Source: Chthoniobacter flavus (GTDB lineage: Bacteria > Verrucomicrobiota > Verrucomicrobiia > Chthoniobacterales > Chthoniobacteraceae). Taken from it: a stretch of 40,281 nt of DNA. Under the pieces are notes generated by a model. That model ran no database searches, was not told the origin of the DNA, and saw only the letters and a list, made by a program, of their open reading frames with translations. The stretch is from contig CAMAUX010000051.1 of NCBI GenBank assembly GCA_945861435.1, positions 1-40,281 on the forward strand, written 5' to 3'. Below are positions 1-24,309 of the stretch, one piece after another. Each line of letters begins with the position of its first letter. The stretch's first letter is position 1. Both the position numbers and the translations under genes were made by a program.

Positions 1-401
1 GCCACCACCTCCGCCTGCTCGAAGCCCGTTCGCAGATCGGCCAGCGACAGCGAAAGAGGATGCTCCACTTTCCCCTGCACGCTCAGCCGGAAGGTCTCCG
101 GATCCACCTCCAGCGGGATATTGGGAAGATGATACCGCACGAAGAAAGCGTCGTTGGGCGTGATCACGCCCTCATTGAAAACCGCAAAGGGCGTCTCCAA
201 CTGCGGCGGCCGCGTCGTCAGCCGGATCAGCGGGCGCTTCTGCGGATAGCGCACCAGCTCGCGCTCCCCGTTGGCAAAGGGCAGCGTCACGGTCTCGGCC
301 GCACCGAGCAATCGCGAGGCACCCGAGGTAACGACGGCAACCGCAGCCCCACCCGCAAGATGCAGGAATCCACGACGAGCGAGCGGTTGCTGGGGGTGCA
401 T
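1..401 (-). CDS. Sulfite-oxidase-type molybdopterin oxidoreductase, N-terminal part
   Basis: Partial gene; translation from the ATG at 401 gives 133 residues and runs off the left edge. The N-terminus has a twin-arginine signal (ARRGFLHLAGGAAVAVV), so the protein is probably exported folded with its cofactor by Tat. The mature part contains the stretches RPPQLETPFAVFNEG, TPNDAFFVRYHLPNIP and DPETFRLSVQGKVEHPLSL, which are typical of the N-terminal molybdopterin domain of SorA/sulfite oxidase family proteins. By family these oxidise sulfite, or a related substrate, and pass electrons to a cytochrome c. An AGAGGA Shine-Dalgarno lies 7 nt before the ATG (409-414), one of the few convincing ones in the window. 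The gene is divergent from the RND operon across 163 bp. The catalytic cysteine and any haem domain lie outside the window, so the exact substrate cannot be judged. Confidence 0.85.
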   Translation of the reverse strand, partial: MHPQQPLARRGFLHLAGGAAVAVVTSGASRLLGAAETVTLPFANGERELVRYPQKRPLIRLTTRPPQLETPFAVFNEGVITPNDAFFVRYHLPNIPLEVDPETFRLSVQGKVEHPLSLSLADLRTGFEQAEVV

Positions 402-564
402 AAGCCGATCCTCTAACACGCACGCAGATCCTGTGGGAGCAGGAATTAACGCCCTCCCTTTGTCCAACCCCTCTGCAACCTGCCGGGGTGTTTGGGGTTT
501 ACTCAGCCCGAGATGGCGGGTGATCCTCCCAACCCGCGGCCAAAAACCCGCACCACCCCACTTC

Positions 565-7333: not shown

Positions 7334-8035
7334 TCAGCGCGTCCAGCGGCCACGCGCACTCGAAAGCATCGGCAGTTCCTCCGTCTGGTACTGGGTCTTG
7401 CCCACCGCGCCGATCATGGGGACACCCACGGCGGACCGGAACAACTTACTCATGCTCTCCCCGGTATGGCAGCCCCAGCTCTTCACATGCGCATCCGCAG
7501 TGAAGATCCCACGCTGGATGCAGCTCAACTCGGTCTCGTGAAGCCATACCTTCGACGCGCTATCGATGTGGTTGGAATAATCAAAGAGCCAGCACGCCTT
7601 GTTCGAGTGTCCGAAGTACTCCAACCCCACCAACTTGACCCGCTCCCTCGGCTGCCCGGAGTTGAGGTAACTCACCATCTGCTGCGCCCGGTCAAAGTAG
7701 ACCAACCGAATCCCGAACGCCTCGCGCACCGAGTCGATGAGAGCCAGCAAATCCCGCCCATCCTGCTTCGAACGGCTTACATAGGCGGGCCGGTACACCA
7801 GCCATGTCACCGGTTGCCCGGGAGTCTTGGCTTGGATCTCCTCCGTCCGAATCCGGGCCGCCCTCACGAAGTTCATCCACCAATTGTCGTGCGGCGCATC
7901 CTTGAACTTCTCCCACATCCAGAGCGACACCCCGCCGACCACGATCACATATTCGCCGGCAGGTGCGGCCACCGCGGGGCTCGGCGCCGCCAAAACGCCA
8001 AGGCACGCCACCAGAAGAAGCAGGAAGTTTCTCAT
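7334..8035 (-). CDS. Secreted protein with caspase-like His/Cys pattern
   Basis: A 233-residue protein with a clear signal peptide (NFLLLLVACLGVLAAPSPAVA). I do not recognise a named family. The layout suggests alternating strands and helices: YVIVVGG, VTWLVYRPAY, RLVYFDRA, VKLVGLEYFGHS, then VKSWGCHTGESMSKLFRSA. A strand ending in Gly-His143-Ser followed about 45 residues later by a strand ending in Gly-Cys189-His is the arrangement of clan CD cysteine peptidases (caspases, gingipains, CHAT). That reading is inference from pattern only. It lies 94 bp downstream of the giant four-gene operon on the same strand and 67 bp upstream of bioB, so it could be cotranscribed with either. No Shine-Dalgarno is seen. 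It could instead be a non-enzymatic periplasmic protein. Confidence 0.75.
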   Translation of the reverse strand: MRNFLLLLVACLGVLAAPSPAVAAPAGEYVIVVGGVSLWMWEKFKDAPHDNWWMNFVRAARIRTEEIQAKTPGQPVTWLVYRPAYVSRSKQDGRDLLALIDSVREAFGIRLVYFDRAQQMVSYLNSGQPRERVKLVGLEYFGHSNKACWLFDYSNHIDSASKVWLHETELSCIQRGIFTADAHVKSWGCHTGESMSKLFRSAVGVPMIGAVGKTQYQTEELPMLSSARGRWTR

Positions 8036-8129: not shown

Positions 8130-11100
8130 TCAGAGCACCACCGTCCGGCGCACGGTGTCCGGCGCAAGCGTCGTGACGCCGGTCAGCACCTGAGCAACCG
8201 CGGGGGTGCCGACCGAGAACGATCCAAACTTCTGCGCTACAAAGCCGAACCGGTCCCCTCCCGCCTCGGTCCCCGAGACAGTGCCGGAGATGAGTACGCT
8301 GGCGATCTGGGCGACGATCTTTGCGTTGTTCGATGCCGTGATCAGGCGGTCGTCCTCGTCCCCAAACCCGTCGCCGTCCGCGTCCTCAACGCCCGCCACC
8401 AGATCGCTCGCGGTCCAGTTTCCCGTCACCTTCACCGCACCAATCTGGGCATCGGCATTGGTGGCAAATCCCAGCAGATCATACCCGGCAAGGATGCGCG
8501 ACTCGCTCACGTTGCCAAGGATCGTGAAGCTACCAATGGCGAGATCAACGCTGGCACCGGGAACAGCCTGCCCGCGCGCGCTCACCAGGCTGTGATCCAA
8601 GAGCGCCCCGGCGGAGAAGCTGCCAAGGTCATCCGCCACGCGCAGGATCGTGGAACTCACGGCGCCCTTTGCATAAAAGCTGGCAAGTTTCCCACCGATC
8701 TCAATCCGTGCCCCGGTCACAGTCCCGACCTGCGTTCCGGAGGGACTTCCCACCACAATGGGGCCACAGTTGCCCGAAGCCACGGAACCCGTGCCACTCC
8801 GGATCGATCCGCTGAGACTACCCGGACTTGAAACCCTGCTCACCGAATCCACGATCTTTACTCCAGTGAGGTTTCCCTCGGCCTCGATGGCACCAGAAGA
8901 CCCGCCCGTCCCTCCCTTGAGAAAGCCCGTGATGGTGACCTGACCGAGGTTGCCCGGCAGGTCGAGGCCGCGCCGCAGCGTGTCCCGACTGAGTACTGAA
9001 CCGCTGTACTCTCCTGCTCCGCCGACAAGGTTGCCGCGGATCTCCACACTCGTGGTGCGGCCGTCGCAGACAATGCTGCCAGAGTGCATCTGCGCACCGC
9101 CCTGCACACTGCCCACCAGCAGCACCGCACCGAGATCCGCCCCGGCGAAAATCGTGCCCGAATTATCTCCGGAACCGCCGCGCACCGCCACCGGGTTGGA
9201 GACGGATGCAGCCACAGCAGAGCCGACGCTTAGTGAAGCAATCTTGCCCGTGGAACTGATCGCCCCCGATCCGCCCCCGATCCCTCCCTCGATGCTCAGC
9301 CCCACCTTGACCGCCCCCATGTCGCCTACGAGCCCTGCATTCATCCCGCTGAACACGCTGCCCGATCCCTGCCCCGCCCCGCCGACAAGCGAGCCACCGA
9401 TCACCAACCCTCCAAGTTTGCCGCCAATCTGAAGCGTCGCACCATAGTCACCGCCGCCTCCAGAGATGCTCCCCTGCACGGTGAATACCCCGGCGTTGCC
9501 GTTGCACTTGAAGACGGCGGTGTTCGCGGCCGTCGCGGTGACGGATCCTTTGACGGTCACAGCGCCAAGGTCGGTGCCCGCAAACACATTACCACCACTC
9601 ACCGACGAGAACTCCGTCACCTCCAGCGTGTGCGCCGAGAGAGCGCTAAGAGATGCGGCGTTGGTGAGCGTCAGCCTGGATCCCGTAGTAAAAGTGCCGC
9701 TCGAAAACGCATCCGTCGTGGGCGTGCTCAACGTCACGGTCTTGGCGTCCGTATTCACCGCAGTAATCCGCGTACCCTCGGCGATGCCAGTGCCGGCGAC
9801 ACTCACTCCCACAGAAAGACCAGCGACGCTGGTGAACCCGCTCACAATCGTTTCCCCACTGGCCGCCGTGAGTGAGGAGATCGTCACAGTCACAGGCGCG
9901 GCAGCCGCTGCCACCACATACTCGCTGCCACCGGTTGCGCCCGCAGTCACGTCCCGCACAAGAATGCGTGACCCCGCCCGGATCCCCTGCGCAAGCCAGT
10001 TCCCGCCGTCGGTGCGCGTGATGGTGTCGGCAGAACCGGCATCGGCGAGATCCGCAGTCACGGAGAATTGCGTGGCCTGTGCACCGGCAGTCACCGAACC
10101 GCCAATGGTGAGGCTCGTGATCTTGCCACCAGCCGCCACGATCACCCCTGAGCGTTCGCCGGTGCCTCCGTTCAAGCTCCCATCGATACTCACGGCACCG
10201 ACCGATCCACCCGCTTGCAGCGCACCCGAGTCAGTCCCGTCGCCCCCGATCACACTGCCTTTGATACTCACCGTGCCAATGTCGGCCAGAGCGGTGACAC
10301 GCCCGGAGTTGATCCCGTTGCCACCCAAAAGACTCCCGCCAACGAGCGCCGTGCCCTCCGTCCGCTTCACCAGTGCGAAGCTCGCAATCTTCTGTGCAGC
10401 CACACGCCCGGAAAGCTCCCCATCGCCACCCACCACACTGCCCGCGATGCTCACCGCCCCCATCGCTGCCGAGCAGAGAATCCCCCCGGAATTGAACCCC
10501 GCACCTCCGATCACATCACGCAGCACAGTCACTGCCCCCATAAACCCACTACCCACCTGAACGGAACCGGAATTCTGCCCCGCACCGCCGGTCACCGAAC
10601 CCGTGATCTTGAGCGATGTGAGTTCAGTGGAGGCAAAAATCTTCCCGCTGTCGCTGCCAGCCCCCCCGGTGAGCGAACCACCGAGGGTCACCCCAGCGAT
10701 CTTTCCCGCGCGCGCCGCCACAAGACCGGAGAAATCGCCCGCGCCCCCGATCACATCACCTGTGACGGATACGGCACCCATGGTGGTTCCGGCGTCGATG
10801 GCTCCCGAAAAACTGCCGCCGCCACCTTGGATCTTCCCGCGCACCGCCACGGTGCCAATGGACGCCGCAGCGCGGATGAGGCCGGTACTGTCGCTTGCAA
10901 AGCCGCTATCCGCCTTGCCCACCACGTTTCCGTAAATGGTGATACTCGCGATGGAACCCACCGCCTTGGGGCTCGCACTATTGACGTTGAGAGTGGCGTG
11001 CTTGAAGTCGCCAGAAACCTTGCTCGTTCCAATCACCAGCGCACCGATACCTCCGGTGATCTGGCTCACCAGCGAGCCCCCGGCAGCCTGCGTCTCGAGG

Positions 11101-11654
11101 CCGTGCGCGCCCATGGACTGCACGGTGAGCGACTTGATGGCCACGGCCGTGTTCGCGTTGCCAGCCTCGATCCGTCCAAGATCGCCCTGAATCGACACCG
11201 CACCCAGTGCCAGCGCCATGCTCTTGGCGGGATTCACCGCCTTCAGAAAACCCACGTCCGCGAAACTCGTCCCCGCAGTCCTGCCGTCCATCTTCGTCGT
11301 CGAAATGGTGATCGACACCCCTTCAGCCGGGTTGGGATTGACGTCCTTGAGTGCCGTGAGGTCCAGGAGCTGCAACTGCTGCGGACCGTCTATATTGGTG
11401 AAGGCCGAAGCCACCGTCACCCCGCCCGTGTCGAAGTCGAACACGGCATTGGCACGAGTCTGCGCATCGGCAGCGCTGAACACGGGAGAGGAAAACTTCA
11501 CATTCACCAACTCCCCATCGGCGTTGAGGTAAATCAGAGTGCGGTAGTCGGTGAGAAGGGTCGCAGGCGCGATGCGGTTTTCCAGCGGCTCGATGCCCGT
11601 CACTCGCGACGGTTTTCTATTGGAGGGAGGCAAGCTCATGAAAGGGGGCGTCAT
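8130..11654 (-). CDS. Giant GGxGxxSG solenoid protein B with LExRIAPA tag
   Basis: A 1174-residue protein, last gene of the four-gene operon, coupled to the gene before it by ATGA (11651-11654). The N-terminus is basic and lacks a normal signal peptide. It carries GIEPLENRIAPATLL (residues 20-34), a LEPR-XLL-type tag seen in large surface proteins of Planctomycetes and Verrucomicrobia. After a domain of about 230 residues come some 16 repeats of roughly 20-30 residues with the core GGxGxxSG followed by a short beta strand (AVSIxGSV type), predicting a beta-solenoid. Residues about 525-675 interrupt the array with unrelated repeats (VAGLSVGVSVAGTGI). The C-terminus has an acidic Ca-binding-like loop (DADGDGFGDEDD) and RFGFVAQKFGSF. 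It is homologous to 16300-19233, most clearly at both ends. Likely extracellular; function unknown. A start at 11639 (MSLPP) is also possible. Confidence 0.88.
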   Translation of the reverse strand: MTPPFMSLPPSNRKPSRVTGIEPLENRIAPATLLTDYRTLIYLNADGELVNVKFSSPVFSAADAQTRANAVFDFDTGGVTVASAFTNIDGPQQLQLLDLTALKDVNPNPAEGVSITISTTKMDGRTAGTSFADVGFLKAVNPAKSMALALGAVSIQGDLGRIEAGNANTAVAIKSLTVQSMGAHGLETQAAGGSLVSQITGGIGALVIGTSKVSGDFKHATLNVNSASPKAVGSIASITIYGNVVGKADSGFASDSTGLIRAAASIGTVAVRGKIQGGGGSFSGAIDAGTTMGAVSVTGDVIGGAGDFSGLVAARAGKIAGVTLGGSLTGGAGSDSGKIFASTELTSLKITGSVTGGAGQNSGSVQVGSGFMGAVTVLRDVIGGAGFNSGGILCSAAMGAVSIAGSVVGGDGELSGRVAAQKIASFALVKRTEGTALVGGSLLGGNGINSGRVTALADIGTVSIKGSVIGGDGTDSGALQAGGSVGAVSIDGSLNGGTGERSGVIVAAGGKITSLTIGGSVTAGAQATQFSVTADLADAGSADTITRTDGGNWLAQGIRAGSRILVRDVTAGATGGSEYVVAAAAAPVTVTISSLTAASGETIVSGFTSVAGLSVGVSVAGTGIAEGTRITAVNTDAKTVTLSTPTTDAFSSGTFTTGSRLTLTNAASLSALSAHTLEVTEFSSVSGGNVFAGTDLGAVTVKGSVTATAANTAVFKCNGNAGVFTVQGSISGGGGDYGATLQIGGKLGGLVIGGSLVGGAGQGSGSVFSGMNAGLVGDMGAVKVGLSIEGGIGGGSGAISSTGKIASLSVGSAVAASVSNPVAVRGGSGDNSGTIFAGADLGAVLLVGSVQGGAQMHSGSIVCDGRTTSVEIRGNLVGGAGEYSGSVLSRDTLRRGLDLPGNLGQVTITGFLKGGTGGSSGAIEAEGNLTGVKIVDSVSRVSSPGSLSGSIRSGTGSVASGNCGPIVVGSPSGTQVGTVTGARIEIGGKLASFYAKGAVSSTILRVADDLGSFSAGALLDHSLVSARGQAVPGASVDLAIGSFTILGNVSESRILAGYDLLGFATNADAQIGAVKVTGNWTASDLVAGVEDADGDGFGDEDDRLITASNNAKIVAQIASVLISGTVSGTEAGGDRFGFVAQKFGSFSVGTPAVAQVLTGVTTLAPDTVRRTVVL
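8880..10835 (-). repeat. Coding repeat array, GGxGxxSG units (solenoid B)
   Basis: About 16 units within gene 8130-11654, each with a variant of GGxGxxSG (GGAGDFSG, GGDGELSG, GGNGINSG, GGTGERSG and others) followed by a hydrophobic strand. The array is split by about 450 bp of different sequence at roughly 9630-10085. Boundaries are approximate. Confidence 0.8.
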
Positions 11655-14600
11655 GGATTGGTCACCGGCAGGTCACCCGCCTGCATCCGGTCAAACTTTG
11701 CATCGGTGCTCTGCGCAGGGCCGAGGCGGATGCTGTAGTTCGCCGCGCTCGTGTCTTGGGAGGTGATGGTCAGGCTCTGCCACGTCGACCAATTGGCGGC
11801 TGTGAAGGTGAGCTTGGTGACCTCCGTGCCCACGACAAAAAACTTCACCCGCCCCGCCTGAGTGCAGCTCACAGGCACATCCACCGTCGCTGCCGGCGCC
11901 GCATCCAACCGAACTTGGAAGGACGCGGACGTGGCGGCGGAACTGGCGCTGCCGAGCGCAATCTTGATCCCGCTTGCTGGATCGAATGCCGTGGATCCAG
12001 TGCCATGCTGGATGCCGTTGATGGGGCCGGAAACGAGCACCTTCTCGATCGGCTCAAGATCCGCAATCGGGTCGTTATAGAGCAATTGCACAAGCACGTT
12101 CCCCCCTGTGCACAGGTTGCCCGCCGGAAGTTTGAGCCGGAAATCTGCGTTGGCCCCATTCACGAGGCTGTAGCTGACCGCGTTGCCAGCTGGTAGCGCA
12201 GGCACGCCCGCCTCAGTGAACGGGCCGATCCCCAACGGAGCGGTGTTCGGCAGCGAGGCGTCCGGAGAATAGTAGAAGCGCACCAAGGCCGGCTTAGAGG
12301 CGGCACTGCCCGAGTTGAAGATCGTCAGAACTCCGCCCAGCAGGCTCTGGTTGCCGCTGGTGGTTTTAAGGAGCGGGGCATTCCACCACGCCACAAGACG
12401 CGCCTGCGCAAAGGGCGGCAGATGCGGCGCTGCGGTGAACCCAGTCGCACGGACAAACCCGAAACCCGACGCCTCCTCCACGGCCACGCCCACCGTGCGC
12501 TTGATGCGCACCGTCGTAGGGAAGAGCTCCGGATCAGCGTAGGTGTGCGAGGCGAAGACGGAGAAAAGCCCGTTGCCGTTGCCGACGATCCGTCCCTTGC
12601 TCCATGTGCCGTCGCCCCAGTTCACCAGCGCCTCGTAGGCAGCCACGGCCTGCGGACGCCCATCGCGAAAGGTCGCGACCACACGCTCGGTGAGGGCGGC
12701 GCCGCTGGTCTGCAGGACCTGCGGACGCACGAAAATCGGCTGCAGGCCCGAGGTGCGCGCGGCGGGCGCCACCAGCGCTTCGCTGTAAATCTTGCGGCTG
12801 AGACCGTTGTTATCCCGCACCTCCACGGTCATCTGGTAGAAGCCCGGCTTGGAGTAAGTGTGCGTGCCGAAAACGGCCATCTTGCCCAGGCCCGGAGACC
12901 GGGGGTCGCGACGGACCGAACTGGCATCCACCACCGGCGTTCCATCCCCCCAGTTGATCTTCGCGGAAAGCGTGGTGGCAGAGGCCCGCAGGTCGTTCAA
13001 GCTGAAGCTGGCCACGACTCCAGAAGTGATCGCCGTTCCCGCAACGCCCTCCACCCGCTCGCTCGTCCCGCTAATCGACGCCCCCCCCACACCCACGCGC
13101 ACCACCGCGGAGTCCTGAAAATACACGGGGGCCTCGGTCGACTGGATGGAGTTGTAAGACACGGAACCGACGACGCCCTTGTCGTCGAAAAAGTCGCTGG
13201 CGCGCCAACCGCGCACGGACATGCTGCGGCCCCGCACCAGCACACCCACGTCCACCGGCCCCTTCACGCCCGGACCGCCCACCACACCGATCAGATTGCG
13301 GTCCTGTCCGCTCTGAAAACGGTTTTCAGCGTTATCGAACAGGAAGTGGAGGAAGTCGGGGTAGTCGAACTCCAGATCCACCGCGCTCATCCGGAAGTCC
13401 ACCTCCTGCCCGGGCACTGCGACCTGCCCACCCGGACTCGTCATGAAGGTGGGCGAGTTAAACGCGTCGACCACCGCATCCACGGCGAAGGTGCGCTTTT
13501 CAGAAAGAACCGTCCCGTCCTTCACCTGCACGCTCACGATGGCCGAGCCGTTGGTCGTGGCGCTAAGAATCAGCACCGCGTCCTGACTGTCCTCCACCAC
13601 TTCCGCACGCTCGATGAACACAGGGACGTATCCCGGATTCTGAGTGTCTCGCAGCGGCGCCTCCTCGCACAGACGCATGATGTCGAACCCGCGCACCAAC
13701 TGGCCGAAGACGGTGTGCTTGAAATCCAGATGACGCGGCGATGCCGTGGTGATGAAGAACTGCGAGCCATTCGTGGCCGAAAGCAGCGGCATCCCGGAGT
13801 TGGCCATCGCCAGCTGCCCGCGCCCTGTGAAAATCAGCGAGGGATTGAACTCGTTGTCGAAAGTGAACCCCGGCCCGCCCTGCCCCCAAAGCTCGGGATG
13901 CGTCAGATCCCGGCTGTTCGGGTCGCCCCCTTGAAGCACGAAGCCGGGGACGATCCGGTGAAAGTGCAGACCGTCGTAGAAGCCCGCCTGCGCAAGGCCC
14001 GCGATATTACCCACCGTCATCGGCGCCATGTCCCGGAAAAGCTGCAGCAGCATCTCCCCCCGGAACGCCGCGGCATTGGTATCGCCCGCATAGGATACCG
14101 TCAGCTTCAGATACGGGTTGCCAGTCTTCACCCGGGCCATGATTTTCGGATTACTCGAGGTGACCGTATAAGTGAGAGGACGCCCGCCAGGCTGGCTGGC
14201 ATTGATCGGCACCGTCACCGCCTTGGCCACCGGCACGCGCGTCACCAGCAACTGGCCCGTGCGGGCCGCCGTCCCCCGCACCACAGTGAGCGTCAACGTC
14301 TGCTGCACAGGCCTGTCATCCCCGGTCGCTGCGAAATACGTGAACGTCTCCGTCAACGACCCTGTGCCCTTTGGTGGCGTGTAGCTGTAGGAACCGTCCG
14401 CATTAAGCAGCAACGTTCCGCCCCCGCTGGTCGTGAAAGCTGTGCCAGGCGTGATCGGCGCCACCCCCTGCGTTGCACTGGTCACCCGTGCAATCGGGGC
14501 AAGCGAGGGCGCCGCGGCATTGAGCGCCAACCCCAGAAACACACAGCCCTCCCTGTCCGCACCAGAAAGAGCGATGCGGATCCGGCCGTCATTGCCACCA

Positions 14601-16303
14601 TCAGAATCCCAGGCCGTCACCCGCCCCGTGGAGCCTTCCTGCAGCACGTACCCGCCCTCCGGCACGTTGGTGAAAGCAAAGGTCCCGTCCGCACCCGACT
14701 GCGTCGTGGCAAACAACTCGCCCGCGTCGATCGCACCGTCCTGATCGAGATCGCGGTGCAGTCGAAGCGTGGCGCCAGCGAACGCGGTGTCCGTCGCACT
14801 CACGACCCCGTCCCGGTTCACGTCGGTGAGCACCCTCCCGCGAATGGCGCGCAGGATGGAACCGGTGAACACGAAATCTTTCCCGCCCACATCCGCAGCT
14901 GCCACGCTCGCTGAAAGCTGTGCGGCTCCGGAAACCTGCGCCGAAGAGGGCGCGGTGACCACCAACAGATAGCTGCCCGGAAAGAGCTTCTCAAAACGGT
15001 ACGTGCCATCGACCCCGGTGCGCGTGGTGGCAACCTTCTCGCCGGAAGCCGCCACCCCGTCCTCATTCGTGTCGCTGTAGAGTTTCACCTCCACCCCGGG
15101 CAATTTCACCTCGCTGGGACTGTGACTCACGGCCCCCGAGATGGTTCGCACCACCAGCCCGCTGAGCAGGAAATTCCGCCCGCTCAACGCCGCACCCGAA
15201 ACCGTTAGCACCATGCTGCTCGATCCACTGTCAGCCACCTGCGCACCAGCGGGCAGATCCAGCACGGCGACATAAGCTCCGTCGAGGAGACCGCTGAAAG
15301 AGTAACTCCCATCCACCAAAGTCCGCGTCGTTGCAATCTGCTCGCCTTCGGCGGGCTGTTGGTCGGCGTTGCTGTCGCGAAACAGACGCACCTGCACAAA
15401 CGGCACGGGCGCCAACGTGAGGTCCGTACTGCGATGCCGAACGATGCCGCTGATCCCGTATGCGCTCATTCCGCCGACCAACAGATCTTTTTCAGAAGCG
15501 CTTGCCTGCAGGTCCGCCACTGACAGAACACCCTCACTCGGAATCACAAAGCTCGCTCCGGACAAGAATCCGGAACGGTCCACAGTCACCAGGTAATCCC
15601 CGCGCGGCAGGTCGGTGAACTCATACACGCCCCGCGCCCCGGTGACCACCGATGCGACGAGTTCCCCCACATCTGAGGCGCTGTCGCCATCAAGGTCGCG
15701 ATACAGATTCACCGTGGCACCGTCCACAAACGCATCCCCGCTGCTCACGGCGCTGTTCGCATCGCTGTCATGCCGCACCTTCCCACCAACGGAAAAGAGG
15801 GGGAGCGACCCGAACACAAAATTCTGCGAGACCACGTCTGAACCCGCCACAGTGACTGCCTGTGCGCCGTCCGGGGTCCCGTCCGCCTCTGACAGGAGGC
15901 TGGCACCGTCGGGCTTCAGAAGTTCCACCGCGTATGCACCGTCCACAACGCCTGAGAATGCATAGCCGCCATCGACCGAGGTCAGCTTGCTCTCCACCAA
16001 CGATCCGCTTCCCGTGTCCCGCAACCGCACCACCGCCGCGCGTACCGGACGCGCAGCACCCGTGCCGTCGTCGAGAGTCACCGTGCCGCTGATGGAGGCC
16101 GCATCGGCAGCGCCACACCACCCCGCAAAAACCAACACGCAAAGGATCCATACAGACACCCAAAAGCGCCGCGGAAAAAGCTGCGGACATCTGGGTTCCA
16201 GAGGGGATGACGGGGGACTCATCGGAAGGGAAAAGGAGCTAGGATCGTGCCGCTCACGCAGCGCGGGGCAAAGATTTTTGTCAATCAACGTGGGCGTTCT
16301 CAT
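11651..16303 (-). CDS. Secreted SdrD B-like / cyclophilin / PKD multidomain protein
   Basis: A 1550-residue protein coupled by ATGA to genes on both sides. A signal peptide (FWVSVWILCVLVFAGWCGAA) sits about 47 residues in; starting at ATG 16222 would give a more normal N-region, but the overlap favours 16303. Five SdrD B-like domains follow (ISGTVTLDDG, GGKVRHDSDA, SGIVRHRSTD, SGAVSHSPSE, RGRVLTDVNRDG), each ending in a YxFxxLxxGxY-type strand and several with DxNxDG calcium loops. A VCBS/cadherin-like domain (LNADGSYSYTPPKG) comes next. The cyclophilin domain (about residues 745-905) has catalytic-type Arg783, Phe788 and Gln791 in FHRIVPGFVLQGG, plus MANSG and NGSQFFIT. Two PKD-like domains (NWGDG) and one C-terminal beta domain (LTFTAANWSTWQSLTI) complete it. 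It probably acts outside the cytoplasm as a prolyl isomerase fused to adhesive modules. Confidence 0.87.
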   Translation of the reverse strand: MRTPTLIDKNLCPALRERHDPSSFSLPMSPPSSPLEPRCPQLFPRRFWVSVWILCVLVFAGWCGAADAASISGTVTLDDGTGAARPVRAAVVRLRDTGSGSLVESKLTSVDGGYAFSGVVDGAYAVELLKPDGASLLSEADGTPDGAQAVTVAGSDVVSQNFVFGSLPLFSVGGKVRHDSDANSAVSSGDAFVDGATVNLYRDLDGDSASDVGELVASVVTGARGVYEFTDLPRGDYLVTVDRSGFLSGASFVIPSEGVLSVADLQASASEKDLLVGGMSAYGISGIVRHRSTDLTLAPVPFVQVRLFRDSNADQQPAEGEQIATTRTLVDGSYSFSGLLDGAYVAVLDLPAGAQVADSGSSSMVLTVSGAALSGRNFLLSGLVVRTISGAVSHSPSEVKLPGVEVKLYSDTNEDGVAASGEKVATTRTGVDGTYRFEKLFPGSYLLVVTAPSSAQVSGAAQLSASVAAADVGGKDFVFTGSILRAIRGRVLTDVNRDGVVSATDTAFAGATLRLHRDLDQDGAIDAGELFATTQSGADGTFAFTNVPEGGYVLQEGSTGRVTAWDSDGGNDGRIRIALSGADREGCVFLGLALNAAAPSLAPIARVTSATQGVAPITPGTAFTTSGGGTLLLNADGSYSYTPPKGTGSLTETFTYFAATGDDRPVQQTLTLTVVRGTAARTGQLLVTRVPVAKAVTVPINASQPGGRPLTYTVTSSNPKIMARVKTGNPYLKLTVSYAGDTNAAAFRGEMLLQLFRDMAPMTVGNIAGLAQAGFYDGLHFHRIVPGFVLQGGDPNSRDLTHPELWGQGGPGFTFDNEFNPSLIFTGRGQLAMANSGMPLLSATNGSQFFITTASPRHLDFKHTVFGQLVRGFDIMRLCEEAPLRDTQNPGYVPVFIERAEVVEDSQDAVLILSATTNGSAIVSVQVKDGTVLSEKRTFAVDAVVDAFNSPTFMTSPGGQVAVPGQEVDFRMSAVDLEFDYPDFLHFLFDNAENRFQSGQDRNLIGVVGGPGVKGPVDVGVLVRGRSMSVRGWRASDFFDDKGVVGSVSYNSIQSTEAPVYFQDSAVVRVGVGGASISGTSERVEGVAGTAITSGVVASFSLNDLRASATTLSAKINWGDGTPVVDASSVRRDPRSPGLGKMAVFGTHTYSKPGFYQMTVEVRDNNGLSRKIYSEALVAPAARTSGLQPIFVRPQVLQTSGAALTERVVATFRDGRPQAVAAYEALVNWGDGTWSKGRIVGNGNGLFSVFASHTYADPELFPTTVRIKRTVGVAVEEASGFGFVRATGFTAAPHLPPFAQARLVAWWNAPLLKTTSGNQSLLGGVLTIFNSGSAASKPALVRFYYSPDASLPNTAPLGIGPFTEAGVPALPAGNAVSYSLVNGANADFRLKLPAGNLCTGGNVLVQLLYNDPIADLEPIEKVLVSGPINGIQHGTGSTAFDPASGIKIALGSASSAATSASFQVRLDAAPAATVDVPVSCTQAGRVKFFVVGTEVTKLTFTAANWSTWQSLTITSQDTSAANYSIRLGPAQSTDAKFDRMQAGDLPVTNP

Positions 16304-19233
16304 ACAAGCCGGTGCAACTTCACATCCACAGCGGACACCTCCGGAGAAAGGCTCCCGCCCAACCCCACCGCGGACAACGCAAGAGACACCCCCCTGTATT
16401 TGAAGGAACCCACCTCCTGCGCCACAAAACCAAAGTGGTCCCCATCTGCCGCGGTTCCGCTCAGAAGCCCGCCAATGCTCACCGAACCGATCTTGGAGCG
16501 GATCGTTCCGCTGTCCGAGCCCGTGGCCAATGTGTCACCAACCCCATACCCCTCATCACCCGCCACCGCTCCGGCCACAAGGCTGCTGGCCGACCACGCG
16601 CCCACCACCACCACCGCACCAATCTGCGCGTCGGCATTCGTCGCGACACCGTTGATGTCGTAACCCGCAAGAATCAGGGAACCCGACACGCTGCCAGCCG
16701 AGAAACTCGCGAGCGCAAGATCCACGCTTGCGCCTTGGACAGCCTGCCCCCTGGCCAGAATGCGGCTGTCCGTCACCGCGCCCGAAACCAGCACCCTGCC
16801 GATCGCATCACCCGCCTGCACACGCGTGGCGGAAATCGATCCTTTCACCTCGAGCACGGCAAAATCACCCGACGCCTCCGCGACCCCGGAGTCCGCCCCG
16901 GCACCACCATTGATCGAGCCCAGAACCTTCATCGTTCCAATGGATCCGGTGGATTCGGGATTCAACCCGGCGCGCACCGCCGCGCTTCCCTCACCCAGGC
17001 CGCCGAGCACGCTCCCCGCCTGCAGGGATGCAAGGTTTCCATCCGCCGCCACCATCGCAGACTGCGCCCCCGCGCCTCCGGCAAGCGAACCCGCGATCAC
17101 CACCGAACCGATATTGCCCGGCTTGATCACGCCAGCCAGTTCCATATTCGCGCAATGGACAGCCGCGCTCCAATCTCCCGCTCCACCGATCACGGACCCC
17201 GTGATGTTCACGCGCTGAAGCAACCCGCCGGCCTCGAGCGAAGCAGAGTGCCCGCCCTCACCGAGCGCGGCGCCGCCTCCGCGCACGTCTCCCGCAACAC
17301 TGATGGAGGCGATCGATCCACTCGCATAAATCGCACCGCTGTACACGCCCGCCCCGCCCTGCATCCCCACGCGGGTGACGCCGGCCTTCCCCACCACCAC
17401 GCTGCCGAGCGAGCCCTCCCCCGCATTTAACATCCCGGACTGGTCGCCCGTCCCGCCCACCATTCCAGCCCCCACCACGGCGCTCGTCATCAACTGGTTC
17501 TCCGCAGGATCCACACACTGGAACACCGAACCGCTTCCCGCTCCGGAACCACCCGTCAAAGCACCTCCCACACTCAGCGCCCGCACACCGGAATGAAACA
17601 CGAAGGCCCCCGAATATGCGCCTGCGCCCCCCACCAACGCGCCGCCCACCTGCAAAGTTCCCGGACTGGAGAAAGCCTCCACAGAACCAGTGAAATCCCG
17701 CTCCCCTCCTTGGATGCTGCCCGCCACGAGAAGACTTTCCAAAACTCCATCCGCCAGCAAGGAACCCGAGCGCGCTCCGGCCCCGGCCACCACACCACCA
17801 TAAATCTTCACCGCCCCCATCTTCTCCCCGCTCACGAACGTCCCGCTCCACGCCCCGCCGCCTCCACTCAGCGAATGGGTGAGTTGCCCCGCTTTTCCCA
17901 ACGTCACGGCGCCCAGTGCGCCTCCGGCAAGAATCCCTCCGGAATAACTGCCCGCACCACCAAGCACCGTCCCCCCGATGCTCACGGCCCCCATGTTGGT
18001 GCCCGAACGCAGCGCACCGGATGCCGCGCCTTCTCCCCCACGCAAGTCTTTGGCAATGCTCACCGAGCCAAGGGTTGAGCCCGCGGAAATCTGGCCTGAA
18101 CTCGCTCCGGCAGCGCCCGCCACACCACCCGTGGTCGTCACACCGCCCATGCTGCCACCGGCCTTGAGAACCCCGGAGTCGTCACCCGCTCCACCCACAA
18201 TACCCAGCGCGCCGGACAGCGTCCCCACTCGCACAGAGCCGATGTTCCCAGCCGCCGTGATACTGCCACTGGCGCTGCCTCCGCCGCCAACCAGTTTCCC
18301 CGCAATGGCCACACTCGCGATGTTGCCGCCCGCGATGATCGACCCGGATTTTGCTCCGGCCGCGCCCACCAACCCGTCGGCGGCGGTGGCCCCGACCTTG
18401 ATGGCGCCGATGTTTCCGGAACATTCGATCAACCCTTTTCCGAGCAACTCTCCACCCACGAGCGAGCCGCCGATGGTGATACTGCCGATAGACGCAGCCG
18501 TTGAACCGTCACCCACGTCCACCGATGCGCCCAAGACATCCGAGGCAACATTCAGAGCACCCAGTGCCCCGACCAACGTGCTCTGGAAATTCGCTGAAGC
18601 ACCCTGTGTCCCAGCAACCTTCCCCAGCGAACGCACGCTGATGGACTTCACCGCCACCGCCAAACCGTAGTCCCCACAGTCGATCCGCCCCAGATCTCCG
18701 CCCACAGTCACACTCCCCAGCGATGTCCCAAAGGCGCTGATCCATCCCACATTGGCAAAGCCATCGCCGGCACCCGCCTTCTTCGCACTCACCGTGATCG
18801 ACACCCCGTCAGCCGACAGAGCCACGAGGTTGAGCTTCTGCAGCTGTTGCGGCAGCGCCTTGCCTCCCGCATCCACAGCACCGAAGGCCATCACCGCACC
18901 CTGCGCATCGCCAAAAGTGAATGCCATGGACGGATCCGCCACAGGGACGCCGGCAATCGTTGGGAAAAGATTCTTGGTGAACTTCACCGTCACAAGATCC
19001 CCGTCCAAATCCACATAGGTCACCGTGCTCGGATTCACGAGCGTCGCTGGAGCGATGCGGCCCTCCAGAGCCTCAATCCCTCGGACATCCCGCTGCCGCT
19101 TTCGCGCAGACGGCTCCGGCTGCACACCCGCTTCGGGTCGCAACGAGACGCGCTCGACAGAGGCAGGGACGTCGGCACCTCCCCGCAACCAGCGTTGCCA
19201 AACCCGTTCAATGAGATTGCGGAGGGCGCGCAT
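16300..19233 (-). CDS. Giant GGxGxxSG solenoid protein A with LExRIAPA tag
   Basis: A 977-residue paralogue of 8130-11654. Its ATG lies one base after the TAG of the upstream cyclophilin gene, and its own stop overlaps the next start (ATGA at 16300-16303). The N-terminus has about 50 basic residues, then RGIEALEGRIAPATLV (about residues 51-66), matching the tag in the paralogue; no classical signal peptide is visible. About 18 repeats with GGxGxxSG cores follow (GGGGSASG, GGAGDDSG, GGAGSYSG, GGTGDQSG and others), without the inserted block found in the paralogue. The C-terminal stretch closely parallels the paralogue: ARGQAVQGASVDLAL, ILAGYDINGVATNADAQIGA, DHFGFVAQEVGSF. Predicted beta-solenoid, exported or on the surface. 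Function unknown. Confidence 0.88.
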   Translation of the reverse strand: MRALRNLIERVWQRWLRGGADVPASVERVSLRPEAGVQPEPSARKRQRDVRGIEALEGRIAPATLVNPSTVTYVDLDGDLVTVKFTKNLFPTIAGVPVADPSMAFTFGDAQGAVMAFGAVDAGGKALPQQLQKLNLVALSADGVSITVSAKKAGAGDGFANVGWISAFGTSLGSVTVGGDLGRIDCGDYGLAVAVKSISVRSLGKVAGTQGASANFQSTLVGALGALNVASDVLGASVDVGDGSTAASIGSITIGGSLVGGELLGKGLIECSGNIGAIKVGATAADGLVGAAGAKSGSIIAGGNIASVAIAGKLVGGGGSASGSITAAGNIGSVRVGTLSGALGIVGGAGDDSGVLKAGGSMGGVTTTGGVAGAAGASSGQISAGSTLGSVSIAKDLRGGEGAASGALRSGTNMGAVSIGGTVLGGAGSYSGGILAGGALGAVTLGKAGQLTHSLSGGGGAWSGTFVSGEKMGAVKIYGGVVAGAGARSGSLLADGVLESLLVAGSIQGGERDFTGSVEAFSSPGTLQVGGALVGGAGAYSGAFVFHSGVRALSVGGALTGGSGAGSGSVFQCVDPAENQLMTSAVVGAGMVGGTGDQSGMLNAGEGSLGSVVVGKAGVTRVGMQGGAGVYSGAIYASGSIASISVAGDVRGGGAALGEGGHSASLEAGGLLQRVNITGSVIGGAGDWSAAVHCANMELAGVIKPGNIGSVVIAGSLAGGAGAQSAMVAADGNLASLQAGSVLGGLGEGSAAVRAGLNPESTGSIGTMKVLGSINGGAGADSGVAEASGDFAVLEVKGSISATRVQAGDAIGRVLVSGAVTDSRILARGQAVQGASVDLALASFSAGSVSGSLILAGYDINGVATNADAQIGAVVVVGAWSASSLVAGAVAGDEGYGVGDTLATGSDSGTIRSKIGSVSIGGLLSGTAADGDHFGFVAQEVGSFKYRGVSLALSAVGLGGSLSPEVSAVDVKLHRLV
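16865..18375 (-). repeat. Coding repeat array, GGxGxxSG units (solenoid A)
   Basis: About 18 units in gene 16300-19233, with spacing near 20-30 residues and cores such as GGEGAASG, GGGGAWSG, GGAGAYSG and GGAGADSG. Several late units end in SA rather than SG (GGAGDWSA, GGAGAQSA, GGLGEGSA). Boundaries are approximate. Confidence 0.8.
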
Positions 19234-19234
19234 G

Positions 19235-22200
19235 CTAGTCGTCGTCGAGATTGGTCACGGAAACGCTGCCGCCAAGAACCCCGCTGAAACGCGGATCCGC
19301 GCTGACAGCGGCCCCCACAATGACGCGGTAAGTCTTCGGACCATCGATCACCGAGTCGTCCACCCCGCGCACCGTGATCACCTGATCGGTACTCGCATTC
19401 GTCGCGGCGAAAGTCAGAGTCTGCTTGTCGATCGTCCCCTCCGCAGGATTTTCCACCGTCACACTCACGGTCACATCGGAAGCTGGCAACTGGTCGAACC
19501 GCACCCGGAATTGCGCTCCCGCGAAGGACGGAGCCTCCGATGTCTGCAGAGTCGCAGGCGAGATCGTCATCACCGGTTCGTTGTCCCGGTTGGTCGCGTT
19601 GACCACAAGGCTCGCCAGATTCAAAAAGCGCGGGTCCGTTGTCTTCGCGGGATCCGTATCCACCGAGGCGGTGACTTGATAGCTCTTGTCCCCATCGGGA
19701 AGGTTGTCGTCGACACCCGTCACCAGCACCGTACGAGCCGTGTTCCAGTTGGTGGAATCAAAGGTGAGCATGGCAGGACTCACGACGCCCTCCGCCGTTT
19801 TGGAACTGCTGATGTTCACCACCACCGCCGAACCCGCCGCCGGCGCCTGGCTGAGCTTGAGCGTGAACGAGCCGCTCCCACCGACAGCCTCACGCGTGGT
19901 CAGACTGCTGCGCGAACTCACGAACACCGGATCATCGTCCGTCGATCGCACACTCACCGATACCGGCGAATACTGAAAAAACCGGGGATCCTGCGCCGCA
20001 TCCACAGCCACGGTCACCGTGCAATTGCGGTTACCGGCACCCAGCGCGTCGTCCACCGCAGTCACGGTCACGGACTGCTTTGTGCTCCAATTGGCGGACG
20101 TGAAGGTGAGCGTCTGGGGGGAAATCACCGCCACCGAGGGATCCGAAGATGTGACGCGCAGGCTGCAGGTCTCACCGGCACGCGGCGCCCGATCGATGCC
20201 CACCTGCAGTGTGGCGCTGTGCTGGAGCCCACTCGCCTCCGTCAGCGCGAGACTCCCGGGCGTCACGCTCAGCCCCCCGAAGGGACCGTACACCACCGAC
20301 ATCGCAATGGGCTGCAGGTCGGCCACCGGATCCGCATACTCCAGCACAGCGAGCAGGTTGCAGCCGCTCCCGGTCTCCCCGTCGCGCGAATGCGGACGCG
20401 AATCGATGAATCCCAGAAGCCCCTTCTCGTCGCACAAGACGCGCACCCCGGCGCCGGGCTGCAGGGCCGGCAGATTGATCTCCTTAAACCACCTCCCCAC
20501 GTCGAGCAGGATGTCAGCCGCAGGCACCGGCTCCCCCTTGAACCGGTCCACATCGGTGGAGAGATAGAAGCGCGCCTTCGCAGGCAGGGAGGCAATGTTG
20601 CCCGAATTGATCACCACCATCTCAAACGTGAACACCGCGTGCTGGCTGTCCCCCGTGCCCACCAGCTCGCGCACAGGCTTCGACCCTGCAACCCCGCTCG
20701 CATCGGCAGCCGGCAGCGAAACCGGTCCGATCGACCCCACCAAGTGCGCTTGCGGAAAGGGCGGCAGATACGCCGGCGCAGCCACACCCACCACCCGCAC
20801 CGAGCCCCACGCCGTCGCGTCCAGCGAAGAGGCATCGCCCTGCTTATGCACATGAACCCGCAACGCGTAGACGTCACCGTCCACGTAACGATGGGTCCCC
20901 AGCACCGCAAACCTCCCCGCTCCTAACGCACGCACCACACCCGCGGACGACTCGCCGTCCCCCCAATCCACATGCGCCGTGTACCGCGCCGCGGCCACCG
21001 GCGCCTGGTCGGTGAACGTGGCCACCGTGCGTGCGCTCACCGCAAGCCCGTTCACCACCAGCGACTGACCCTGCGCGCTCAGCGGATTGGCGCTGACCAC
21101 CGCCGTGCTCCTCACCACCGTCCGAGCTCCCTTGCTGCCGGTCACCGTCACCGCCACCGGATACACGCCGGGGTTGGTATACAAATGCGTCCCCTTCACC
21201 TGCATCGCGCCAAAAGCGGGGCGGCCCGTCTCCGCTGCAACAATGCCGCTCGTCGGCGCACTGCCGTCGCCCCAGTTGATAGATGCGCTGAAATTCGCCG
21301 CACCACTGCGGGTCTCACCCGTGCGCACGCGCCCCACCACCACGCCCGCGAGGGAAACCGCCGGCCGCCCCTCGATGACCACCGGCGTCCCTTCCAATGC
21401 CCCGGCACCCACGCCAATCCGCACCAAGCGCGAATCGCCCATCGCAGGCGCAGCACCGTCCACCGCACCACGATAGGAGGGATCGAAAGCCGTGACGCCG
21501 ACCCCGAGGTTCATGGGGCCTTCGTACCCCGGGTTTCCCAACAGCAATATCGAGCCGCCCTGCTGTGCGGTCTGCCCCACCGCGGGCACGTCGATGAGCT
21601 TGCTCCCCATCGTCAGATAGTCGCACTCCAAATCCACCGCCTTCGGCACCGGCACGATGAACACGCGATCCTTTGGCCCGACAGCATCCGGCGGTGCCAC
21701 GACAAACGGAGGCGCGTTGTGGGTGTCACGCCGGGCCGTTGCTGTGAACTGCTTCATTCCCGTCTGCCCACCCGCATCACTCACAGTCACCGTGATCACC
21801 GAGGAACCCTCCGCGATTGCGCTCAGCACCAGCACCGCATCCGTGTACTCGTGCGCACCGTCGTCGTAATTCTCCACGACCCGCGCCGAATCCACCTTCA
21901 CATCCGCAAGCGGCCTGTCCGCCCCGTTGCGCGGTGTGGCCCGCAGCTTGTCCAGGACATCCCACCCGTGCGTGAGCTGCCCAAAAATCGTGTGCTTAAA
22001 ATCCAAATGCCGCGGCCCGCCCTCCTCCCACTCCGCCCCCGCAGAGCGCGGCAGATTGCCGTGCGTGATGAAAAACTGCCCTCCATTGGTCGGCTGATAA
22101 TTGTTCGTGCCCGCGTTGGCCATCGCCAGCTGGCCGCGCCCCGCAAAGATCAGCGGCGCCTGGAACTCGTTCTCAAAGTTAAAAGGCACACTCGCACCAC

Positions 22201-22678
22201 CTTGGTAGATGAAGCTCTCCTGCGACGCGTTCCCCGCATTCAAGTCCGCCAACCGCTGCAGCTGGGCCGCATCAAAAAGCCCGCCCTGCGCAAACCCTCC
22301 GATCAAATCAGCCGTCACCGGAGTCCAGTTCCGGAAAAGCTGGAAGACCACCGTCCCCGTGTAGGCCGGATCACCCGCACCACTGGAGCTATGCCTCAAA
22401 TCCAGCCGCAGCAAAGGATTCCCCGTCCGCACCCGCGCGTAGACCTTGGGATTGCTGCTGGTCACCCGGAAACTCAGACGTCCCTCTCCGTAAGCGACAA
22501 GAGGAAGCACCAGCGCCTTTCCCACCGGAACCACCGGCGCGACGCGGACGGGAGCCGCACCCGGCGCCACCGCGGGCACTGGATCCTCGAGCACAGGCGG
22601 GAGAGCCCATGCGATGCCACTGCACGCCAGGTTACAAAGCAGTGCGGTCAGACAACGGATGAAACCGGTGCGGGCCAT
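19235..22678 (-). CDS. Secreted cyclophilin / PKD / Calx-beta-like repeat protein
   Basis: A 1147-residue protein, first gene of the four-gene operon. It has a signal peptide (FIRCLTALLCNLACSGIAWA). A domain shared with 11651-16303 (VPVGKALVLPLVAYG, VTSSNPKVYARVRTGNPLLR) leads into a cyclophilin domain (about residues 105-270) with QGG, GRGQLAMANAG, GGQFFIT and DFKHTIFGQL. The usual FHR-x4-F segment is altered: LQR (Arg142) and Phe156 are separated by 9 extra residues, with Gln159 kept. Two PKD-like domains (NWGDGSAPTSG, DWGDGESSAG) and three C-terminal Calx-beta-like repeats (LTFxSxNWxTxxxVxVxxVDD) follow, ending in an Asp-rich tail. It probably works outside the cytoplasm, with or on the solenoid protein encoded one base downstream. 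A 19-bp tandem repeat precedes the start. Confidence 0.87.
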   Translation of the reverse strand: MARTGFIRCLTALLCNLACSGIAWALPPVLEDPVPAVAPGAAPVRVAPVVPVGKALVLPLVAYGEGRLSFRVTSSNPKVYARVRTGNPLLRLDLRHSSSGAGDPAYTGTVVFQLFRNWTPVTADLIGGFAQGGLFDAAQLQRLADLNAGNASQESFIYQGGASVPFNFENEFQAPLIFAGRGQLAMANAGTNNYQPTNGGQFFITHGNLPRSAGAEWEEGGPRHLDFKHTIFGQLTHGWDVLDKLRATPRNGADRPLADVKVDSARVVENYDDGAHEYTDAVLVLSAIAEGSSVITVTVSDAGGQTGMKQFTATARRDTHNAPPFVVAPPDAVGPKDRVFIVPVPKAVDLECDYLTMGSKLIDVPAVGQTAQQGGSILLLGNPGYEGPMNLGVGVTAFDPSYRGAVDGAAPAMGDSRLVRIGVGAGALEGTPVVIEGRPAVSLAGVVVGRVRTGETRSGAANFSASINWGDGSAPTSGIVAAETGRPAFGAMQVKGTHLYTNPGVYPVAVTVTGSKGARTVVRSTAVVSANPLSAQGQSLVVNGLAVSARTVATFTDQAPVAAARYTAHVDWGDGESSAGVVRALGAGRFAVLGTHRYVDGDVYALRVHVHKQGDASSLDATAWGSVRVVGVAAPAYLPPFPQAHLVGSIGPVSLPAADASGVAGSKPVRELVGTGDSQHAVFTFEMVVINSGNIASLPAKARFYLSTDVDRFKGEPVPAADILLDVGRWFKEINLPALQPGAGVRVLCDEKGLLGFIDSRPHSRDGETGSGCNLLAVLEYADPVADLQPIAMSVVYGPFGGLSVTPGSLALTEASGLQHSATLQVGIDRAPRAGETCSLRVTSSDPSVAVISPQTLTFTSANWSTKQSVTVTAVDDALGAGNRNCTVTVAVDAAQDPRFFQYSPVSVSVRSTDDDPVFVSSRSSLTTREAVGGSGSFTLKLSQAPAAGSAVVVNISSSKTAEGVVSPAMLTFDSTNWNTARTVLVTGVDDNLPDGDKSYQVTASVDTDPAKTTDPRFLNLASLVVNATNRDNEPVMTISPATLQTSEAPSFAGAQFRVRFDQLPASDVTVSVTVENPAEGTIDKQTLTFAATNASTDQVITVRGVDDSVIDGPKTYRVIVGAAVSADPRFSGVLGGSVSVTNLDDD

Positions 22679-22761: not shown

Positions 22762-23616
22762 TCAATCCCGCAGCACAATCGTCCGGTTCCCACTCACAAA
22801 AACCCGCCCTCCCAGATGCCAGCGCACGCTGCGCGCCAGCGCCAGACGCTCGCAATCCCGCCCAATGCGCACCAGATCCTCGGGACTGTGAAAATGCTCC
22901 ACCCGCGTCACCTCCTGATCGATGATCGGCCCCTGATCCAGATCCGCAGTCGCGTAATGGCACGTCGCACCGATGAGCTTCACCCCGCGTTCCCATGCCC
23001 TCTGGTACGGATTGGCTCCCACAAAGGACGGCAGGAACGAGTGGTGGATGTTCATGATCCGCCCCGGATAAGCGGCGCACAGCGTGTCGGGCAGCACCTG
23101 CATGTAACGCGCCAGCACGATGAGATCCGGGCGCACCTCCTCAAACACCGCTCCCAACTGCGCAAACCCAGCCTCCTTCCGCGCGGAGTCGATTGGCACA
23201 TGACGGAACTCCAATCCCTCGCGCTCCACCATCGCACGAAAATCCTCGTGATTGGAAACCACGCACGCGATGTCGAAGGCCAGTTCGCCGCAGCGCCAGC
23301 GCCAAAGCAGATCCGCGAGGCAGTGCCCCAACCGGCTCACCATCAGCACCACCTTCATCCGACTCTCGGCCGCACGGATCGTCCAATCCGCGCGCAACCC
23401 GCTGCCGATCGGCTCGAACGCCGCGCGCAACTCCCCGATCCCCACCGACAGCGTCTCGGTCTCCACCGCCATGCGCGCGAAAAACCAGCCCGAACGCTCA
23501 TCCGTGAACTGGTGCACCTCGAGCAGGTTGCCGCCATGCTGGGCGACAAAACCTGAGAGTTTCGAAAGCAGCCCAACTTGGTCGGGGCAGGAGATCTTCA
23601 GCAGCGTGGTAGCCAT
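22762..23616 (-). CDS. purU: Formyltetrahydrofolate deformylase
   Basis: A 284-residue protein matching the usual PurU length. Start 23616 (MATTLLKISCPDQVGLLSKL) is chosen because the ACT domain begins there. The ACT domain covers about residues 1-85 and the formyltransferase-fold hydrolase domain follows. Active-site stretches are visible: MNIHHSFLPSFVGANPYQRA and GATCHYATADLDQGPIIDQE, containing the family Asn, His and Asp. It hydrolyses 10-formyl-THF to formate and THF, balancing one-carbon pools in the cytoplasm. It is divergent from the thioredoxin-like gene across 96 bp, and 83 bp upstream of the giant operon on the same strand, so readthrough into that operon is possible. Confidence 0.95.
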   Translation of the reverse strand: MATTLLKISCPDQVGLLSKLSGFVAQHGGNLLEVHQFTDERSGWFFARMAVETETLSVGIGELRAAFEPIGSGLRADWTIRAAESRMKVVLMVSRLGHCLADLLWRWRCGELAFDIACVVSNHEDFRAMVEREGLEFRHVPIDSARKEAGFAQLGAVFEEVRPDLIVLARYMQVLPDTLCAAYPGRIMNIHHSFLPSFVGANPYQRAWERGVKLIGATCHYATADLDQGPIIDQEVTRVEHFHSPEDLVRIGRDCERLALARSVRWHLGGRVFVSGNRTIVLRD

Positions 23617-23712
23617 CGGGGTGGAAAAGCCAGAAGACCTTGCCCACGGCGCCGCTGAAGTCAATGCGTTCGGGGGTTGCCTGTCCACGGCATCCCCGCT
23701 CTCAATGACGCC

Positions 23713-24309
23713 ATGGCCGTCTCCTCCACCATGCTCCCTCTTGGCACGCCCGCCCCGCACTTCGCACTCACCGACGTCGCCTCGGGCCGCACCGTCGCGC
23801 TCGCAGACTTCGCCACCGAACGCGCCCTGCTCGTCGTGTTCCTCTGCGCCCACTGCCCGTACGTCGTCCACGTCCAACCCGAACTCGCCCGCATCGCACA
23901 GGATTATGCAGGACGCGGCGTGGCCATCGTCGGCATCACCTCCAACGACACCACACAGTATCCCCAAGACGCGCCCGCACCCACCGCCTCCATGGCCCGC
24001 AGCGCAGGCCTCTCATTCCCCATCCTCTTCGACGAATCCCAAGCCGTCGCCAAGGCATACACCGCTGCCTGCACCCCCGACTTCTTCCTCTTCGGCCCCG
24101 AACGTCTCCTCGCCTATCGCGGCCAGATCGACAGTTCGCGCCCGGGCCGTGGCGAGGACCGTCCAGGACGAGGAACCCTCGACGGACGCGACCTGCGCGC
24201 AGCACTCGACGCGGTGCTGGATGGGCGCCCGGTGGATCCCGCGCAATCCCCGAGCATCGGCTGCAACATCAAGTGGAAGCCCGGCAACGAACCCGCTTAC
24301 TTCGCCTGA
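23713..24309 (+). CDS. Thioredoxin-fold redoxin (AhpC/TSA-like)
   Basis: A 198-residue protein from the ATG at 23713 (MAVSSTMLPLG); an ATG at 23677 is in frame but adds 12 unhelpful residues. It has a peroxiredoxin/thioredoxin fold: LGTPAPHFALTDVASG, strand LLVVFLCAHCPYVVHV with a Cys45-Ala-His-Cys48 pair (the CxHCPYV motif of this subgroup), IVGITSND, and cis-proline region YTAACTPDFFLFG. The C-terminal SPSIGCNIKWKPGN is also typical of the subgroup. No signal peptide is obvious, so probably cytoplasmic. Likely a thiol-disulfide or peroxide-handling protein; the specific partner is unknown. The next gene starts 25 bp downstream on the same strand. Confidence 0.9.
   Translation: MAVSSTMLPLGTPAPHFALTDVASGRTVALADFATERALLVVFLCAHCPYVVHVQPELARIAQDYAGRGVAIVGITSNDTTQYPQDAPAPTASMARSAGLSFPILFDESQAVAKAYTAACTPDFFLFGPERLLAYRGQIDSSRPGRGEDRPGRGTLDGRDLRAALDAVLDGRPVDPAQSPSIGCNIKWKPGNEPAYFA

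Follow-up and report, generated by a model that had tools for sequence, protein, structure and literature searches.

A conserved cyclophilin and beta-helix gene cassette in Chthoniobacteraceae and its association with proteins bearing an N-terminal LExRIAPA tag

What would an exported cyclophilin be doing in one operon with a giant repeat protein that carries a short N-terminal tag in place of a signal peptide? The question is raised by a stretch of Chthoniobacter flavus DNA of 40,281 nucleotides (hereafter the window), which is one whole contig of a draft genome of 5.35 Mb. Four minus-strand ORFs of 977-1550 aa alternate in it as cypA (19235..22678, 1147 aa), solA (16300..19233, 977 aa), cypB (11651..16303, 1550 aa), and solB (8130..11654, 1174 aa), and form two pairs, cypA-solA and cypB-solB, each of a cyclophilin protein (cyp) and a repeat protein (sol). 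The genes cypA and solA are separated by a 1-bp gap, and the solA-cypB and cypB-solB junctions are 4-bp ATGA overlaps. This alternating, tightly packed layout had been proposed in a sequence-only reading of the window and was confirmed, coordinates included.

Both cyp proteins have a signal peptide or a hydrophobic signal-type N-terminus, and neither solA nor solB has one. In cypA, the Sec signal peptide is followed by a pre-cyclophilin domain (VTSSNPKVYARVRTGNP; 22379..22531, minus strand, as for all cyp and sol features) that is kept also in Planctomycetota homologues, a cyclophilin domain (PF00160; 21878..22360, aa 107-267; Pfam E 3e-19, 70 bits against a cut-off of 21.7), two WGDG (PKD-type) domains (20759..21406; from Pfam, the cypA-cypB alignment, and the structure model), and C-terminal Calx-beta-like repeats, which were named by eye. 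The cypB protein begins with a signal peptide or anchor and five SdrD_B/CarboxypepD_reg-type repeats detected by Pfam (14504..16096, approximate limits), and continues with the pre-domain, a PF00160 cyclophilin domain (13601..14062, aa 748-901; E 6e-36, 124 bits, same cut-off), two WGDG domains (12434..13081; from Pfam and the alignment), and a C-terminal domain. The PKD matches given by Pfam are partial in both proteins. The two proteins align at 34% identity over ~830 aa, including the VTSSNPK..ARV(K/R)TGNP pre-domain and both WGDG domains, and the common architecture of pre-domain, cyclophilin, and two WGDG domains claimed for them is thus borne out by alignment and, for the cyclophilins, by Pfam. 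The structure predicted for cypA is a string of beta domains, and its cyclophilin matches solved cyclophilins at Z 19.

Equivalents of the cyclophilin residues R55, Q63, A101, N102, Q111, F113, and H126 are kept in nearly all cyp proteins, and those of R55, Q63, Q111, F113, and H126 are invariant or nearly so among 15-16 cyp homologues, with the cyp of locus L069 being without the Q111 equivalent. Judged by these residues, the cyp active site is mostly intact, and the domain would be expected to be catalytically active. The genome of the window encodes five cyclophilins, and only cypA and cypB are of the cyp type. A secreted cyclophilin fused to other modules had at the outset been regarded as unusual in itself; giant multi-domain cyclophilins are, however, not unique to the cyp-sol system.

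The sol proteins each consist of a tag, an N-terminal domain, a region of GGxGxxSG repeats, and a conserved C-terminus. In solA, the tag reads LEGRIAPA (19045..19068, aa 56-63) and the repeats form a predicted right-handed beta-helix (16381..18810, about aa 142-951, from the structure model); in solB, the tag reads LENRIAPA (11562..11585, aa 24-31) and the repeat region spans 8892..10826 (aa 277-921). The GGxGxx(SG/SA) unit occurs 13 times in solA and 14 times in solB, and the two proteins align at 37.5% identity over ~530 aa of tag, N-terminal domain, and repeats, in agreement with the shared tag and repeats noted before. Cassette sols (L059, L060, L063, L067, L069, and L072, as well as aa 1-20 of the window's solA) have in common a basic, amphipathic segment ahead of the tag, for example MKRPLLTRILDKLKHRKP, and this segment is rarer in other tagged proteins.

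No Pfam family matched solA or solB at E 0.1, so no TPS N-domain, RTX repeats, or autotransporter C-terminal barrel was detected in them, and with no Pfam match a Type I, TPS, or autotransporter assignment of sol was rejected. The solA protein is predicted to fold as one continuous long beta-helix (mean pLDDT 85, pTM 0.77). The sol model had no significant match by Foldseek alone. When the Foldseek candidates were scored with VIA-align, the best structural match was MpAFP, an antifreeze domain with a Ca-dependent beta-helix from an Antarctic bacterium (3p4g, Z 19.1, rmsd 3.2 over 285 residues), followed by the HMW1 secretion domain (Z 14.7) and the hemopexin-binding protein (Z 12.8). In its predicted beta-helix of GG-rich repeats, a surface-protein fold, sol resembles MpAFP and RTX adhesins, HMW1/HxuA, and the S-layer protein RsaA; it differs from them in that no clear sequence relation was found and in that Pfam detects no TPS, RTX, or autotransporter domain.

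The two copies of the cassette share 34-38% overall protein identity, and DNA similarity between them is left only in patches, which indicates that the duplication is ancient and not recent. In the cyp tree, the window's A copy groups with L059 (genome G389) and its B copy with L070 (G390). Both groupings are fully supported and both relatives belong to the same genus, which makes the A and B copies older than the split of these species. A recent tandem duplication was therefore rejected, as the DNA similarity is patchy and A-type and B-type copies each have their own relatives in the genus; by these sequence comparisons the duplication is old and precedes divergence within the genus. Of the two copies, only one seems to have been retained in each of G389 and G390. 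The purU-like gene upstream of the window's cassette (formyltetrahydrofolate deformylase with ACT and formyl transferase domains; 22762..23967, minus strand), which lies outside the system, is also found directly upstream of the B-type cassette L070.

Trees of both families gave a mixed answer to whether the members of a pair descend together. The cyp and sol trees have 7/12 splits in common, the sol tree also places the window's A copy with L059, and cyp and sol distances correlate at 0.82 (0/20000 permutations); on the deep branches alone, however, the correlation falls to 0.14, and the B copy is placed with L070 in the cyp tree only. The agreement between the trees stems mostly from close relatives. 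On the sol tree, the cyp-adjacent sols are grouped in one region (2 label changes vs 11 in shuffles).

A search with the post-cyclophilin region of cyp retrieved a match in only 1/387 genomes sampled across the phylum, namely the window's own. Within the order, cyp was found in 15/213 genomes, all of them Chthoniobacteraceae, with one further, 16th match being marginal. A sol gene lies directly after cyp in 15/17 visible cyp genes, and, genome G411 aside, in 13/13 of the relatives' loci that extend into the next gene; for clearly placed starts, the spacing is -4 to +14 bp. The G391 contig stops within cyp. This adjacency is kept at 35-50% identity despite changed flanks. G411 (L066, 5759-11012) has two tandem cyps without an adjacent sol, followed by an unrelated GAF-like gene (named by eye), and its genome has only two tags. 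As to whether homologues would be found mostly apart, cyp never occurs apart from sol except in G411, but sol-type proteins do: the window's genome encodes four, and 2/4 lie elsewhere without a cyp beside them. Due to sol-type proteins also occurring without cyp, the coupling is one-sided.

A third gene is part of the cassette in most relatives. In eight loci, it encodes a protein of 813-910 aa with a second cyclophilin and an N-terminal tag like that on sol. Nine genomes have a full-length copy, and all nine also have cyp-sol, with the third gene adjoining it in eight and ~20 kb away in one. Its cyclophilin belongs to another subfamily than that of cyp and has E at the Q111 position. The third gene is absent from the window and from the rest of its genome, and a small ORF downstream of solB (7334-8035) that was considered for the role is unrelated.

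The tag itself is not private to the cassette. A search of the window's own genome with the LExRIAP DNA pattern returned nine sites, each of them N-terminal on a large ORF of up to >3300 aa, and the tag heads many giant proteins in the relatives. Further tagged giants of this genome (996 to >3300 aa) are located at L031:7837-15162, L032:7095-10085, L033:4362-16665, and L030:1-10035; some have FG-GAP repeats, and L033 has a pair of them back to back. The 51 distinct matches give the consensus [IVF]-E-P-L-E-x-R-I-A-P-A, after which come hydrophobic residues. We would like to note that the search pattern was the core LExR(I/V/L)AP(A/S), so that the preceding E-P, the basic stretch, and the following hydrophobic residues lie outside it; there, E is found at -2 in 50/51 tags and P at -1 in 31/51. 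Nearly all of the 51 lie within 70 aa of a start, with two background matches (L140 and L143) lying deeper. No conserved C-terminal signal was seen on 54 tagged ORFs.

Tag and cyp occur together from genome to genome. The 15 cyp-positive genomes of the family have 1-29 tag matches each, typically heading giant proteins, vs 0 matches in 21 and 1-2 in 4 of the 25 cyp-negative genomes, where none of the five matches heads a long ORF. In a Mann-Whitney test, which ignores kinship, on these 40 genomes, many of them drafts, the difference gave p 2.7e-8, and p 2.9e-8 when the cassette's own tags were removed. The joint presence does not reflect one clade, as cyp status is mixed within genera (1/5 positive in g200 and 7/10 in g204).

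In other families, third-gene homologues mostly start with a signal peptide at the position taken by the tag in the cassette copy. The converse is seen in Planctomycetota, Singulisphaera acidiphila among them, whose cyp homologues carry a LEPR-XLL-type tag in place of the cyp signal peptide. That the exchange goes both ways is the strongest indication that the tag probably serves as a targeting signal. In the Planctomycetota loci L186, L192, L193, L203, L185, L274, and L275, the LEPR-XLL-type tag is followed directly by a related cyclophilin, and five have the same pre-domain. LEPR-XLL-type tags recur across the Planctomycetota loci seen, and tagged cyclophilin homologues are sporadic there (5/199 genomes at E 1e-45); the tag thus needs no such cyclophilin in general, and a role of the tagged cyclophilin as general companion of tags in that phylum is not supported.

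The components of the cassette are of known kinds, and we found no description of the cassette or of LExRIAPA in the open-access literature searched. The nearest relative of the tag is LEPR-XLL (NCBIfam NF012209, LEPR-8K), likewise a short E-x-L-E-x-R motif at the N-terminus of very large repeat proteins: model positions 3-10 align with the tag LEQRIAPA, and the Planctomycetota cyclophilin homologues carry its LExRxLL form. NF012209 nevertheless matched only 1/7 tags, at 12 bits and below the curated cut-off of 17, and gave no match among 13 sol N-termini. The tag described here differs from LEPR-XLL in having IAPA in place of xLL and in being tied to a cyclophilin cassette. We know of no function or reader for LEPR-XLL-like N-terminal tags on the giant proteins of Planctomycetota and Verrucomicrobiota. 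Extracytoplasmic prolyl isomerases include PpiA, SurA, and PrsA, and SlrA is a surface cyclophilin; cyp is like these in being an isomerase of predicted export, outside the cytoplasm, and unlike them in being fused to Ig/PKD modules, 750-1550 aa long, and operon-coupled to one beta-helix protein.

We favour, with about as much confidence as doubt, the reading that the cassette is a dedicated extracytoplasmic folding or assembly companion of the whole class of tagged proteins, with sol as its constant structural member. In such a scheme, cyp would be exported by Sec, its cyclophilin borne on a string of Ig/PKD-like domains; sol, as a long beta-helix, would reach the cell surface via its N-terminal LExRIAPA tag in place of a signal peptide and would serve as a fibre or scaffold, the conserved structural part; and in most relatives a second, tagged cyclophilin would be added. 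Beyond the inner membrane, cyp and, where present, the tagged cyclophilin would help LExRIAPA proteins to fold, dock, or be retained. We infer from sequence that the tag would drive export of tagged proteins, that cyp may act on these, and that cyp and sol partners may be in contact. The sequence-only reading had suggested a dedicated folding, anchoring, or matrix system; the conserved pair (15/17) makes a folding or assembly role a fair proposal, but the tag is genome-wide. More sweeping, and in our view doubtful, is the claim that LExRIAPA, together with LEPR-XLL, replaces the Sec signal peptide on giant surface proteins, and that the cassette of cyp, sol, and tagged cyclophilin exports, folds, or anchors them in Chthoniobacteraceae. 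The question of what the tag does nevertheless becomes testable, with homologues that swap tag and signal peptide and with a conserved cassette whose presence coincides exactly with use of the LExRIAPA form. If the companion reading is true, the tag would be an N-terminal sorting signal with a cyclophilin-based partner, unlike the C-terminal tags of sortase systems.

Several observations count against a dedicated companion: sol is poor in proline (1.1-2.5%) and offers few sites to a prolyl isomerase, G411 has two cyps without an adjacent sol, and the tag in Planctomycetota does not generally depend on such a cyclophilin. The low proline content suggests that sol is not the main substrate of cyp, which fits action on the wider tagged class and a structural view alike. 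The main rival is accordingly a purely structural pair, in which cyp would be a surface adhesin or scaffold with the cyclophilin as a binding module, forming one fibre or coat with sol, and the other tagged giants would reflect a shared surface-attached lifestyle. This is a real possibility, if a somewhat improbable one. It would account for the mostly Ig/PKD-like make-up of cyp, the SdrD_B-type adhesin repeats on cypB, the few prolines in sol, the likeness of the predicted sol fold to adhesins and S-layer proteins, and cyp adjoining only sol and the third gene and no other tagged giants. It explains less well why the active site has been kept over deep divergence, why the same cassette holds a second cyclophilin of another subfamily, and why cyp is found in none of the 25 family genomes without a genuine tag.

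That same coincidence of tag and cyp could instead point to cyp as the reader of the tag, with its cyclophilin binding or isomerising the Pro of I-A-P-A (or of E-P-L-E) during export or anchoring, as a many-to-one receptor comparable to the sortases for C-terminal tags. Many tagged proteins per one or two cyps in a genome, jointly present or absent, is the pattern behind the discovery of exosortase and rhombosortase (PMC3237569). PEP-CTERM/exosortase and GlyGly-CTERM/rhombosortase are alike in this respect; they differ from the present case, known here from sequence, in which the tag is N-terminal and the partner a cyclophilin and not a membrane protease. The E at -2 and the P at -1 (50 and 31 of 51) are conserved outside the search pattern, and the Pro of IAPA, as part of the pattern, is no evidence by itself. 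We nevertheless consider such a reader unlikely, as binding of the tag by cyp is putative, the LEPR-XLL-type tags of Planctomycetota mostly occur without a cyp-type protein, and some different gene could be the reader. Finally, the cassette might be an inherited operon of one family that coincides with the tag by chance, in keeping with its confinement to that family and with deep cyp and sol branches that lack clear co-descent; given that its distribution within genera is patchy and still follows the tag from one genome to the next, and that adjacency survives 35-50% identity with changed flanks, we regard this as highly improbable.

Elsewhere in the window, three overlapping plus-strand genes (271-6256) encode an RND-type efflux pump (AcrB family, HlyD-type fusion protein, and outer-membrane efflux protein) and have no apparent link to the cassette. 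A DUF5722 protein, on the minus strand at 27226-29313, adjoins an SNF2 helicase.
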